From NCBI RefSeq assembly GCF_030540765.1, contig NZ_JAUOEL010000001.1:682001-746000 (forward strand): DNA of 64,000 nucleotides. The letters run 5' to 3'. The notes under the pieces were generated by a model. It did not search any database. It was not told the origin of the DNA and saw only the letters and a list, made by a program, of their open reading frames with translations. Position numbers and translations under genes: made by a program. The stretch comes from Flavivirga jejuensis (GTDB lineage Bacteria; Bacteroidota; Bacteroidia; Flavobacteriales; Flavobacteriaceae). Shown piece after piece: positions 24,040 through 27,432 of this stretch (positions are counted from its first letter, which is position 1; every line of letters begins with the position of its first letter).

Positions 24040-24891
24040 TTATGATTCTCGAATTTTGCAATCTGAAACAATGGCATCAGTATTTTTCCCTAATACATGT
24101 TTCTTTTTACCTTCCTCAACCCAGTTTTCATTATTTTCAAGCATATAAGTATTCAATATAGAGTTCTTTGCATGTAAGGGGTTTATTCCTTGTACTAATT
24201 CTAATCTTAAATCAAATAAATAGTCAGAATTTTGACGATCTTTTTCCTTTATTAATTTTAATTCTTGCGCTTTAACATGGGCATCTTGTTTCGGGTTTAA
24301 AACTCCTTTTAAAGTAGTACATTGATGACAGATTCCTTTTTTGTTAACGAAAGCACATCGGTTATCAAAAATACGAATCATATTTTTTCGGGCATCAGCC
24401 AATGAATGTTTTACAATACCTTCTGTAAAGCCAGTAATTTCGATAATTTCAGAAACCTTAAAGTGATAGACCTCTTTTAATAATATGCATACTTGTTGTT
24501 TTAAAAGTAAGGTCTTGTTAATACAATTAAAACAATATGAAATGTGTTCTTTTATTTCATAATCCCGTTCAGGTGTCGTTTCAAAAATCATTCGCATTTT
24601 ATCTATTAATTCAGGAGATTTCGAATGTAAAGCTGCTCCGTAATCTTGAGAATTTTCAACCCAGCGTTTTTTACCTTTCAATTGATTTTTAGCTGAATTT
24701 AAAGCAATACTAAAAACCCATGTTTTAAGCGAGGATTTTCCTTGAAATTTTTTAATATTATCTAGACCTTTAATATAGGTGTCGTGTACAATATCTTCTG
24801 TGTCCTGACGATTAGTAAGCAGTCTGAAAATAAAGGAAGATAATTCATCTTTAAATCCTATAAATTCTGATTCATATTGTTGTTTCATCAT
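24040..24891 (-). CDS. ECF-type RNA polymerase sigma factor with cysteine-rich C-terminal extension
   Basis: About 283 residues from the ATG at 24891 (MMKQQYESEF); an upstream ATG at 24933 would overlap the HxlR gene by 23 bp. Region 2 is clear (FIFRLLTNRQDTEDIVHDTY, KTWVFSIALNSAKNQLK), and region 4 follows (LLKEVYHFKVSEIIEITGFTEGIVKHSLADARKNM). After it comes a Cys cluster, CAFVNKKGICHQC, that could bind zinc, then about 80 unassigned residues. Typical ECF factors are near 190 residues, so this extended form may sense something directly. No anti-sigma gene is adjacent. It lies 19 bp after the HxlR-type gene on the same strand, so the two are probably one transcript. Confidence 0.82.
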   Translation of the reverse strand: MMKQQYESEFIGFKDELSSFIFRLLTNRQDTEDIVHDTYIKGLDNIKKFQGKSSLKTWVFSIALNSAKNQLKGKKRWVENSQDYGAALHSKSPELIDKMRMIFETTPERDYEIKEHISYCFNCINKTLLLKQQVCILLKEVYHFKVSEIIEITGFTEGIVKHSLADARKNMIRIFDNRCAFVNKKGICHQCTTLKGVLNPKQDAHVKAQELKLIKEKDRQNSDYLFDLRLELVQGINPLHAKNSILNTYMLENNENWVEEGKKKHVLGKNTDAIVSDCKIRES

Positions 24892-24910
24892 TGATTTAAC
24901 CGAATTATAT

Positions 24911-25360
24911 TTAGCAATAATTTTTAGCATCAAAGCTTTTTACAGAAGCAACTATTTCCCGAAGAAATTCGTCTTTGTCTGTTTTAACTCTTTTAATTAT
25001 TTCATTCATCATCTCGGCTTTTTGATTTGGAATAATTAAAGAATCATCAAAATTAAATCCCCAAATGAGCATCTCTAATAAAATAGGAATCAGTCCAATC
25101 CCGTTTTCGGTAAGAGTATAAACTTTTCTGGTTTTTTGCAGTTCATATTTTTTACTCACTAAAAAACCATTAGACTCTAATATTTTTAACCTGTCTGATA
25201 AAATATTAGTTGCAATACCTTCTCCGCCTTCTAGAAATTCATTGTAAAAACGAAATCCCCGAAACACAATATCCCTTACTATTAGCAATGTCCATTTATC
25301 TCCTAGTATGTCTAAAGCCCTACTTATAGGGCATTCGGATCTTTTTACATTTTTTTTCAC
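24911..25360 (-). CDS. HxlR-family transcriptional regulator 1
   Basis: 149 residues. The winged-helix HxlR signature is complete: SECPISRALDILGDKWTLLIVRDI, FYNEFLEGGEGIATNILSDRLKILE and RKVYTLTENGIGLIPILLEM. The Cys in ECP near residue 10 matches the conserved N-terminal Cys of redox/electrophile sensors in this family (YodB, HypR type), so thiol sensing is plausible. It diverges from a SnoaL-like gene across an 80-bp gap with two palindromic ACTTG-type sites flanking a promoter, the probable binding sites. It is transcribed with the ECF sigma factor downstream. Confidence 0.93.
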   Translation of the reverse strand: MKKNVKRSECPISRALDILGDKWTLLIVRDIVFRGFRFYNEFLEGGEGIATNILSDRLKILESNGFLVSKKYELQKTRKVYTLTENGIGLIPILLEMLIWGFNFDDSLIIPNQKAEMMNEIIKRVKTDKDEFLREIVASVKSFDAKNYC

Positions 25361-25365
25361 TAATC

Positions 25366-25418
25366 ACTTGTTTTTTGCAAGTTAATATTTATATTTGCAT
25401 AGCTTGTTTTTTGCAAGT
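25366..25418 (+). promoter_or_regulatory. Promoter flanked by twin palindromic operators (HxlR module 1)
   Basis: CTTGTTTTTTGCAAGT occurs twice as a direct repeat, at 25367-25382 and 25403-25418, offset by 36 bp; each copy is itself palindromic (CTTG-N7-CAAG, extended to ACTTG-N7-CAAGT in the first). The first copy contains the -33 TTG (25368-25370); after 19 bases comes a perfect -7 box TATATTTG at 25390-25397; the second copy sits just past the expected start. This should let a dimeric regulator shut off the SnoaL-like gene. The same layout recurs at 26254-26308. Confidence 0.8.
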
Positions 25419-25440
25419 AACAAATATAACTAAAAGAATT

Positions 25441-25785
25441 ATGAGAAATTCATTAGAAGTAGTGGAAGGTTTTTTTAAAGCGATAAATGCTGGAGATTTC
25501 AATCAAGCAAAAAAGTTTATGGCAGATAATCATGAGTATCACGGGCCAATGTTTTCAACAAATACACCAGATGCTTATTTTGAAGAATTAAAAGCTTTTG
25601 AAATGGAGTTTGCGGTAGAAACTCAAGACATGATAGTTGCTAAAGATGCCGTAACACATGTGGCAATTTTAAAAATTTTAAAGCCACAAGTGTCAATCCC
25701 TACCTGTGAGGTTTTTAAAATTAAAAAAGGAAAAATTGCAAGGCAGTCATTCTATTTTGATACGGCATTGTTCCCCAAGGTCTAG
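25441..25785 (+). CDS. SnoaL-like / NTF2-fold small protein
   Basis: 114 residues from the ATG at 25441 (MRNSLEVVEGFFKAINAGDF); the longer frame from 25375 would translate the operator and promoter. The pattern of an N-terminal helix, a FKAINAGDFNQAKKFMADN segment and a strand-rich C-terminus fits the SnoaL-like polyketide-cyclase/ketosteroid-isomerase fold. The reaction, if any, is unknown. It is divergent from HxlR regulator 1 and under a promoter bracketed by its presumed operators, so it is probably induced by whatever that regulator senses. Confidence 0.8.
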   Translation: MRNSLEVVEGFFKAINAGDFNQAKKFMADNHEYHGPMFSTNTPDAYFEELKAFEMEFAVETQDMIVAKDAVTHVAILKILKPQVSIPTCEVFKIKKGKIARQSFYFDTALFPKV

Positions 25786-25805
25786 TAAACTATAAAAATA
25801 ACATG

Positions 25806-26231
25806 TTACTTTTTAGAAATTTTTTTGAACTCTTTTAGAAGTGTAGAGCTTATTTTTTCTTGTAAAGGTTTCCCACCGTCAACTAATTCTTTGACATGCA
25901 TTTTATCTTTATCGTTTACTTGCCTATGCTTAACACTCCAATGGGCAATTTCAATCATTATTGGCATTAAATCAATACCCATTTTTGTAAGAGTGTACAC
26001 GTTTTTCTGTTTGTGATGAAGATCTTTGCTCTTAATAATAACTTTCAATTCTTCTAATTTATTCAACCGATCGGTTAAGATATTACTAGCAATCTTCTCA
26101 TCCGATTCACGCATTTCATTGAAATAACGCTTACCCTCAAACATAATATCCCTTATAATTAATAAGGTCCATTTATCTCCAAAAACTTCCAGGGCTTGAT
26201 TTACAGGGCATTCTGATTTAGATTCTTTCAT
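25806..26231 (-). CDS. HxlR-family transcriptional regulator 2
   Basis: 141 residues, clearly paralogous to regulator 1: SECPVNQALEVFGDKWTLLIIRDIMF, IASNILTDRLNKLEEL and KNVYTLTKMGIDLMPIMIEI. It also keeps the N-terminal ECP cysteine. It is convergent with the SnoaL-like gene (21 bp gap) and divergent from the DUF1330-like gene. The upstream gap holds two near-identical palindromic sites in the same arrangement as in module 1 but with a different core (TAGTTGT rather than ACTTGT), so the two regulators probably recognise separate sites. Confidence 0.93.
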   Translation of the reverse strand: MKESKSECPVNQALEVFGDKWTLLIIRDIMFEGKRYFNEMRESDEKIASNILTDRLNKLEELKVIIKSKDLHHKQKNVYTLTKMGIDLMPIMIEIAHWSVKHRQVNDKDKMHVKELVDGGKPLQEKISSTLLKEFKKISKK

Positions 26232-26253
26232 TTTTATAGTTTTATTTTAAAAC

Positions 26254-26308
26254 TAGTTGTATTTTAAAATTGGTTTTATATATTTGTATAGTTGTTTTTT
26301 ACAACTGG
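26254..26308 (+). promoter_or_regulatory. Promoter flanked by twin operators (HxlR module 2)
   Basis: Two 20-bp sites, 26254-26273 and 26289-26308, both begin TAGTTGT and end TGG; they match at most positions and are offset by 35 bp. The second contains the palindrome GTTGT-N5-ACAAC. The -33 TTG (26257-26259) lies in the first site, and 19 bases later a perfect -7 box TATATTTG (26279-26286) lies between the sites. Spacing and logic match module 1 almost exactly. Confidence 0.78.
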
Positions 26309-26335
26309 TCAAAGATACTAATAAAACATTGTTTA

Positions 26336-26632
26336 ATGAGAAAAGGATACATTATTGAAAGTTATGAGATTATAAATAAGGAAGACTATATACCTCCAGT
26401 AAAAGTGATAAATAAAATATTGGAGAAGTTTTATGGGAAGTTTATCGTAGCCACTCCAAAATCGGAAACATTAAAAGGAACTCCTTTAGAAGTCATTATA
26501 GTCATGGAATTCGATTCTGAAGACCATGCAAAAGCATTTTATAATTCCCCAGACTATAGCGATTACAAAAAACTTCATGAAAGAACAACTGAGGGTTGGA
26601 TCCTATTTTCTCCAGAATATCAAAAGAAATAA
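26336..26632 (+). CDS. DUF1330-family protein
   Basis: 98 residues from the ATG at 26336 (MRKGYIIESYEI); a longer frame from 26270 would run through the promoter. The protein has the dimeric alpha-beta barrel layout of DUF1330: KGYIIESYEIINKEDY at the start, then LEVIIVMEFDSEDHAKAFYNSPDYSDYKKLHE. The function of the family is not established. It diverges from HxlR regulator 2 and is separated by 17 bp from the following SDR gene, so the pair is likely co-transcribed and regulated together. Confidence 0.85.
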   Translation: MRKGYIIESYEIINKEDYIPPVKVINKILEKFYGKFIVATPKSETLKGTPLEVIIVMEFDSEDHAKAFYNSPDYSDYKKLHERTTEGWILFSPEYQKK

Positions 26633-26649: not shown

Positions 26650-27432
26650 ATGAAAAATCAGTTATTAGAAAATAAAAATGCTCTTGTTTTTGGAGCTAAA
26701 GGAGCCACAGGAATGAAAGTTGCCGAAGCATTAAAAGAGAATGGTGCTAAAATATTCTTGTCAGATATTAATGTAGAGGGGATAGAACAGTGCGATTTTG
26801 GAGAAATACGAAAGCTGGATACTTTAAATGAAGACGAGGTAAAACAATATTTTAGTTGGTTTGAGAAAGAAAATGTACCTGTTGATATTGTTATTAATTT
26901 GAGTACTTCAAACCCAGAGGATTTTAATCATGGCAAACCTGTAACAGATGTTTCTTTAGAACAATTCATGATTCCTTTAAAAACGACTACTGCTTCACAG
27001 TTTGTAACAGCCAAGGCTGCCTATCCAATAATGTCTAAACAAAAAAACGGTGTCATTATTTTTATAACATCTACACTGGCAAAAGTGGGTTCGCCATGGA
27101 GTTCTGCATTAACAGCGTCGCATGCTGCTACAGAAGGATTGCTAAAAAGTTTAGCTAATGAATGGGGAGCAGAAGGTATTAGAGTTGTAGGTATACGATC
27201 TGAAGCCATGCCAGAATCCCCTACAATAGATTATACGTTTACCACCATGGGAGCAAATATGGGTATGAGTAGAGACGAAATGCAAGCTTTTATTGAGCAA
27301 AATAAAACAGCATTAAAAAGACTCCCATCTATTAAAGAAACAGCAAATGTTGTTGTTTTAGCAGCATCAGATTTTGCGAGTTATATGACTGGAACAATAC
27401 TGAATCACTCTGGTGGTCATATACTTGAGTAA
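26650..27432 (+). CDS. SDR-family protein lacking the catalytic Tyr and Lys
   Basis: 260 residues from the ATG at 26650. The Rossmann start reads ALVFGAKGATGMKVAEAL and the body follows the short-chain dehydrogenase plan: VDIVINLSTS, IIFITSTLAKVGSPW, TASHAATEGLLKSLANEWGAEGIRVVGIRSEAM, and the C-terminal ASYMTGTILNHSGGH. Aligning the segment before EGLLKSLA with the usual YxxxK motif places Leu and His where Tyr and Lys should be. The Ser in ITST is kept. It may bind a nucleotide without standard oxidoreductase activity, or use a different chemistry. It is downstream of the DUF1330-like gene under HxlR module 2. Confidence 0.85.
   Translation: MKNQLLENKNALVFGAKGATGMKVAEALKENGAKIFLSDINVEGIEQCDFGEIRKLDTLNEDEVKQYFSWFEKENVPVDIVINLSTSNPEDFNHGKPVTDVSLEQFMIPLKTTTASQFVTAKAAYPIMSKQKNGVIIFITSTLAKVGSPWSSALTASHAATEGLLKSLANEWGAEGIRVVGIRSEAMPESPTIDYTFTTMGANMGMSRDEMQAFIEQNKTALKRLPSIKETANVVVLAASDFASYMTGTILNHSGGHILE

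Follow-up and report, generated by a model that had tools for sequence, protein, structure and literature searches.

One of the described systems closest to the present locus is the catDE promoter of Bacillus subtilis, where CatR and YodB, both repressors of the HxlR family (MarR/DUF24), act on one common promoter that carries two CatR boxes (PMC6212828). CatR and YodB share a redox-sensing N-terminal cysteine, and cysteine-based sensing is described for HypR as well as for YodB and CatR (PMC6943732). HxlR of B. subtilis itself is a positive regulator, whose DNA-binding helix is identified as alpha4 (PMC7835342); consequently, membership of the family leaves the sign of regulation unfixed. On the promoter side, the -7 box of the primary sigma factor of Bacteroidota is given as TAnnTTTG at -12 to -5 (PMC9723704).

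The locus lies in a 64,000-nucleotide stretch of Flavivirga jejuensis DNA, referred to below as the window, and comprises two minus-strand HxlR genes, each paired divergently with a small plus-strand gene (Table 1). Each regulator gene, together with its divergent gap and the gene or genes behind the gap, is called a module, with hxlR1 (regulator R1) in module 1 and hxlR2 (regulator R2) in module 2. Both products belong to the HxlR/DUF24 family, scoring 54.9 (R1) and 57.9 bits (R2) with Pfam HxlR (PF01638; cut-off 20.8). Among named genomes the closest match to R1 is found in Flavivirga aquimarina (93%), and one relative (L091) carries ATG where hxlR1 has its GTG start.

Table 1. Genes, predicted operators and promoter elements of the two modules (positions within the window).
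Feature	Positions	Strand	Basis and remarks
hxlR1 (regulator R1)	24911..25360	-	ORF; GTG start 25360; PF01638 7.9e-15; helix EGIATNILSDRL; Cys in SECP
Operator 1, module 1 (A-CTTGT-N5-GCAAG-T), predicted	25366..25382	.	predicted -36 to -20 of SnoaL_2 promoter
TTG, putative -33 element and left half-site of operator 1, module 1	25368..25370	+	
-7 box TATATTTG, SnoaL_2 promoter	25390..25397	+	predicted start 25402
Operator 2, module 1, predicted	25402..25418	.	over predicted starts of both genes
Mirrored -7 box, CAAATATA on plus strand	25421..25428	-	candidate hxlR1 promoter, predicted start 25416
SnoaL_2-like gene	25441..25785	+	Pfam; presumed target of module 1
hxlR2 (regulator R2)	25806..26231	-	ORF and Pfam; helix EKIASNILTDRL; Cys in SECP
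Third, degenerate dyad TAGTTTTATTTTAAAACTA	26237..26257	.	hxlR2 leader just before start codon; without TTGY; partly kept in relatives
Operator 1, module 2 (AGTTGT-N5-AAAATT), predicted	26255..26271	.	
TTG, putative -33 element and left half-site of operator 1, module 2	26257..26259	+	
-7 box TATATTTG, DUF1330 promoter	26279..26286	+	predicted start 26291
Operator 2, module 2 (AGTTGT-N5-ACAACT), predicted	26290..26306	.	over predicted starts of both genes
Mirrored -7 box, CAAAGATA on plus strand	26310..26317	-	candidate hxlR2 promoter, predicted start 26305
DUF1330 gene	26336..26632	+	Pfam; presumed first target of module 2
Short-chain dehydrogenase (SDR) gene	26650..27432	+	ORF and Pfam; start 18 bp past DUF1330

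The DUF1330 and SDR genes are probably co-transcribed. They are followed in the window by two genes that we take, from their appearance and without a Pfam match, to be SRPBCC and DinB genes, which gives module 2 the order DUF1330-SDR-SRPBCC-DinB. The genes behind the R2 promoter vary, being SRPBCC-DinB in F. aquimarina, SDR in F. amylovorans and in genome G248, and DinB-SDR in others. Compared with the segment 26336-28675 of the window, the module 2 genes of relatives differ as if they had been lost from the promoter-proximal end, the first gene being SDR, SRPBCC or DinB-like. Visual inspection shows short DUF1330-like starts in F. amylovorans and F. aquimarina, for which tblastn gave no match at 1e-5. 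On the other side of the locus, hxlR1 is followed on the same strand by a gene for a sigma-70 region 2 protein (24040-24933), whose longest ORF, from a TTG at 24933, overlaps the end of hxlR1 and whose ATG form begins at 24888. In one other genome (G306, locus L256) a tandem pair of SnoaL-like genes stands behind a single R1-type twin operator.

The preliminary description had read both divergent gaps as TTG-N19-TATATTTG, with the -33 TTG inside the first operator copy and the copies offset by 36 and 35 bp, and this layout is present in both; the second copy, which had been placed just past the -7 box, begins 3-5 bases after it, depending on where the dyad is taken to start. In both gaps TATATTTG agrees with the Bacteroidota consensus TAnnTTTG. 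A scan with the sigma-70 consensus was set aside, that consensus being unsuited to Bacteroidota promoters. Gap 1 contains two identical dyads, CTTGT-TTTTT-GCAAG from 25367 and from 25403 (offset 36), and gap 2 contains AGTTGT-ATTTT-AAAATT at 26255-26271 and AGTTGT-TTTTT-ACAACT at 26290-26306 (offset 35). To speak of different operator cores, as had been done, overstates the matter: the outer base does differ (C versus G), but both cores are variants of TTGYN5RCAA, and the module 1 site CTTGTTTTTTGCAAG is identical at 12 of 15 positions to the second copy of module 2, GTTGTTTTTTACAAC. The first copy of module 2 is imperfect, with 10 of 15 positions, counted by eye, equal to the module 1 site. 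When the 16-base site was searched for in the window with at most 3 mismatches, 6 occurrences were found (chance mean 2.6; 6 of 100 shuffles reach 6), and only the two exact copies stand out in that scan. Taken alone, module 2, with its imperfect first copy, is the weaker evidence and leans on its relatives.

Relatives of the two regulators were collected from three sources, namely 299 genomes of the family (55 with a match at E<=1e-15 to each of two queries), named bacterial and archaeal genomes (80 of 144 loci kept) and a set of 21 genomes including the own one (17 with a match). A twin site was defined as at least 15 of 16 letters, with the two copies 24-46 bp apart. An initial set of 142 upstream regions, free of redundancy, had twins in 35 of 74 from Bacteroidota and in 34 of 68 from other phyla, and in 0 of 142 when the same regions were read backwards. 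A profile built from these 142 was then applied to the fetched loci at E<=1e-6, and the 277 matches, after removal of repeats and of short upstream regions, left a set of 199 genes, which is not a random sample of HxlR genes. The twin proved to be associated with a particular motif in the recognition helix, T or S followed by N: it lies upstream of 76 of 130 [T/S]N-helix genes, both within and outside Bacteroidota, and upstream of 0 of 69 other HxlR genes (Fisher 1e-19). These counts include locus L155, sorted into the [T/S]N group by hand on account of its helix EGIASNIL (the motif search had given 75/129 versus 1/70), as well as four loci (L041, L056, L180 and L183) whose pairs look badly placed by the scorer. 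The association holds within Bacteroidota alone (40/64 versus 0/66) and with one representative per 60% cluster (17/36 versus 0/46, p 5e-8). At the threshold of at least 15 of 16 letters, 54 of the 130 [T/S]N loci carry no twin (24 of 64 in Bacteroidota), and the tree has two Flavobacteriaceae sub-branches in which 14 of the 15 rows and 6 of the 7, respectively, show no pair of even 14 or more letters.

The twin motif was derived from the same loci that were used for the counts, and the cleanest test is therefore a blind pattern search, available for the C core only. The pattern CTTGYN5RCAAG-N14-24-CTTGYN5RCAAG was found at 8 places in 8 of the 299 family genomes, all of them within 37 bp of an hxlR match (1 place in the backwards-read control). 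The corresponding G-core twin pattern gave 4 places in the same genomes (control 1): two belong to Flavivirga module 2, and the other two are not at hxlR matches. This indicates that the G form by itself is not a widespread pattern; the own genome gives no match to it because the first copy of module 2 is imperfect. Judged from sequence, the promoter-embedded twin layout is an old trait of a subfamily of HxlR regulators, many members of which carry it. HxlR genes as such are common, with a match in 14 of 14 control genomes, and 598 plasmid records gave a match as well, in each case below 60% identity. A regulon extending beyond the locus was also considered and rejected, single C-core or G-core sites not being in excess in the own genome (7 forward and 9 reverse against 6 and 9 in the control for the one core, 20 and 20 against 33 and 33 for the other); this absence is what a local switch would lead one to expect. 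Upstream of a further HxlR gene in the genome (L005, C1:127709-127954) lie a GCTACA-N5-TGTAGC dyad and a related one around TAGCTTTG, of the same 6-5-6 form with another core, which suggests that other HxlR groups may use other words in a like layout.

The position of the first site relative to the core promoter is kept among the relatives. In 30 of the 40 Bacteroidota pairs a -7 box (at least 5/6) starts at +22 from the TTG of the first site, and in 37 of 40 it starts at +22 or +24 (N19 or N21), compared to a mean of 4.5 and a maximum of 10 when the DNA between the two sites is shuffled; a second -7-like match occurs at +14 in 10 of the 40. Of the 36 pairs from other phyla, 29 have a -10 hexamer (TAnnnT, at least 4/6) that begins between +21 and +24 (null mean 5.0, maximum 13), and with one pair per cluster the register is found in 7 of 8 Bacteroidota and 9 of 12 elsewhere. 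The second site slides, lying 24-38 bp from the first in Bacteroidota and 26-46 bp elsewhere. The fixed register argues that the first half-site can serve as the -33/-35 element, the second copy being placed over the -10 or the start. A fixed dimer-dimer contact by helical phasing was considered and dropped, spacings among cluster representatives ranging from 24 to 41; with spacings so variable, positions set by the promoter are preferred to such a contact. Four Nitrosospira loci (L098, L099, L109 and L112) have their two sites at a distance of 27 bp, with mixed outer bases (G, A, C, G) and a second copy that overlaps the -10 hexamer.

Both gaps contain a further element that is absent from the preliminary description, a -7 box on the minus strand 31 bp after the plus-strand -7 box. 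The predicted starts of the two promoters so defined (25402 and 25416 in gap 1, 26291 and 26305 in gap 2) are 14 bp apart at opposite ends of operator 2. Among the Bacteroidota pairs, a mirrored box with a 6/6 match occurs 13-22 bp past the second TTG in 20 of 40 (null mean 0.6, maximum 4). Fifteen of these 20 matches belong to R1- or R2-type loci, either within the genus or in G238, and sit at +17 or +18, a position occupied in 8 of 11 R1-type and 7 of 7 R2-type loci (in G125 it is +20). In this lineage the mirrored box makes a good hxlR promoter candidate; it is no rule of the group, being present in only 3 of 8 cluster representatives.

The R1 protein was modelled with AlphaFold2 (pLDDT 89), and Foldseek matches to 2f2e, YodB, HxlR and HypR place the model among winged helix-turn-helix proteins; with the initiator left out of the numbering, the Thr of T-N is the first residue of a helix spanning 50-62. 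The two regulators are 48-49% identical over about 97-99 residues, and both have the N-terminal Cys in ECP (here SECP) that had been pointed out before. This Cys is invariant in the 31 sequences of the alignment, and a Cys motif near the N-terminus is found in 127 of 129 [T/S]N relatives and in 59 of 70 other HxlR genes; being common in both sets, it is a trait of the family.

Alignment of the helices with their operators, as had been proposed, pairs T-N in R1 with C as outer bases and S-N in R2 with G, A, G, G. In the six genomes with side-by-side modules and in G307 the R1-type operators have C at all four outer positions and the R2-type G, A, G, G, and the outer bases of R1-type operators are all C in 11 of 11 loci. 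Over the 76 pairs, all-C operators occur in 39 of 52 T rows and 3 of 24 S rows (p 3e-7, uncorrected), but the link loses significance once kinship is allowed for, with 4 independent pairs only, and there are counter-examples (L066, T with G/A; L119 and L097, S with C). The covariation of helix and base may thus be taken as a lead only.

We consider it probable that each module is a local HxlR/DUF24 repressor switch with one operator embedded in the promoter and another covering the start. According to this model, a dimer of R1 (or R2) would bind each of the two dyads. The left half-site TTGY of operator 1 would at the same time provide the TTG read by sigma as the -33 element, and operator 2 would cover the predicted start of the target and, since the mirrored -7 box faces it, that of hxlR as well, so that the same protein would shut off its target and itself together. 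Release of the repressor would come from a reactive compound that acts on its N-terminal Cys, and would turn on the small enzymes, namely the SnoaL-like protein in module 1 and the DUF1330 protein plus SDR in module 2.

Several other explanations were weighed against this model. The repeats might be palindromes that an AT-rich genome has by chance or for structural reasons, or they might form RNA hairpins, and a script did find 11 loosely defined twin dyads in the 64-kb window, the module 2 pair not among them; however, only the module 1 pair among the 11 has perfect arms and identical copies, and the layout is kept across genera and phyla and in our sample is exclusive to one HxlR helix motif, which makes this explanation exceedingly improbable. 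That the regulators could be activators, with the upstream copy bound to recruit polymerase, is suggested by the positive action of B. subtilis HxlR (PMC7835342). We regard it as improbable nonetheless, because site 1 lies over the -33 element and site 2 over the predicted start, where proteins on both would block polymerase, because this register recurs in 37/40 and 29/36 pairs, and because CatR, with its two boxes at catDE, is a repressor (PMC6212828). The mirrored -7 box could also be no promoter at all, hxlR being transcribed from elsewhere and CAAATATA being a reflection of the A-rich leader. Neither module has a TTG for it, as read by eye at N19 spacing, and the box is missing from 5 of 8 cluster representatives; against this stand the 6/6 matches at +17/+18 in 8 of 11 R1-type and all 7 R2-type loci (+20 in G125), with 0.6 in 40 expected from the null, and we hold this alternative to be rather doubtful, with some chance of being correct.

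The history of the two modules is a separate matter. The preliminary description had seen in them a tandem duplication of one switch in the lineage, followed by insulation through a change of the operator core together with the recognition helix. The common geometry, the identity of both proteins as HxlR regulators and the consistent C versus G at the outer base all stand, and six genomes from the genus (G000, G019, G248, G301, G302 and G303) do have the modules next to each other, with TN and a C core in R1 and SN and a G core in R2. Local duplication and insulation fare less well. In a quick tree the R1 and R2 clades (SH-aLRT 96 and 97) both reach beyond the genus, G238 grouping with R1 and G125 and G005 with R2, and for a joint clade of R1 and R2 the AU test decides neither way (p 0.50). 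The modules are on different contigs in G307. G125 has a G/A-type operator and its sole match is an R2-type gene, with no second one at E<=1e-15; since G-bearing operators are present in Nitrosospira too, the base change need not stem from coexistence of the two regulators. The layout occurs in several phyla, so that the shared geometry needs no local copying, and the link between helix and base carries the kinship correction and counter-examples given above. Duplication followed by insulation is thus an unlikely history, and a simpler account is the stronger one: R1 and R2 would both belong to an old HxlR group in which many regulators have a promoter-embedded twin operator.

Among 57 first genes scanned behind twin operators there are 10 SnoaL_2, 5 SDR and 3 Tautomerase_3 genes, with fewer cupin, GST, flavin oxidoreductase and other genes; no fewer than 7 of these 57 genes are orthologous to the one in module 1, and 12 of 69 gaps gave no target by the rule used. 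Such enzymes often act on small reactive compounds, and by analogy these target types agree with the cysteine-based sensing known for HypR, YodB and CatR. In its widest form, to which we give an even chance, the proposal is that of a multi-phylum HxlR group in which the TTGY half-site is the promoter's -33 or -35 element according to the host sigma factor, the second copy lies over the -10 or the start and, given the face-to-face promoters of Flavivirga, gates regulator and target together there, and the outer base is tuned by the residue before N, T or S. To our knowledge, few HxlR regulators have a known operator, and the proposal, if true, would supply a readable operator code for many uncharacterised regulators: a helix-linked, promoter-locked twin operator would allow binding sites, regulated genes and starts to be predicted from sequence in several phyla. 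R1 and R2, present in one genome, would be a natural pair for study of the determinants of DNA specificity in the HxlR family. In the open-licence literature covered by searches that were only partly aimed at the operator, no paper on a TTGYN5RCAA twin operator was found.

Compared with known regulators, the best NCBIfam likeness of both R1 and R2 is to RrpB, of the RrpA/RrpB pair of Campylobacter jejuni, at 43.1 and 58.1 bits, and membership of the RrpB family (NF047364) was rejected, these scores being far under its cut-off of 175 bits. The nearest solved structure to R1 is PA1607 of Pseudomonas aeruginosa (2f2e; sequence 3e-16, fold 5.6e-7), entered as a putative transcription factor, whose helix AKNIL has KN where the R1/R2 group has [T/S]N. 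The R1 model also matches the fold of B. subtilis HxlR with DNA (7bzg, E 1e-4), but that protein differs in being a positive regulator and in sensing formaldehyde by a Cys-Lys crosslink inside one helix. The catDE system differs from the present locus in that CatR and YodB act on one common promoter whereas R1 and R2 each have their own gap; what the two systems have in common is regulators of one family with an N-terminal Cys, and two boxes at one promoter.
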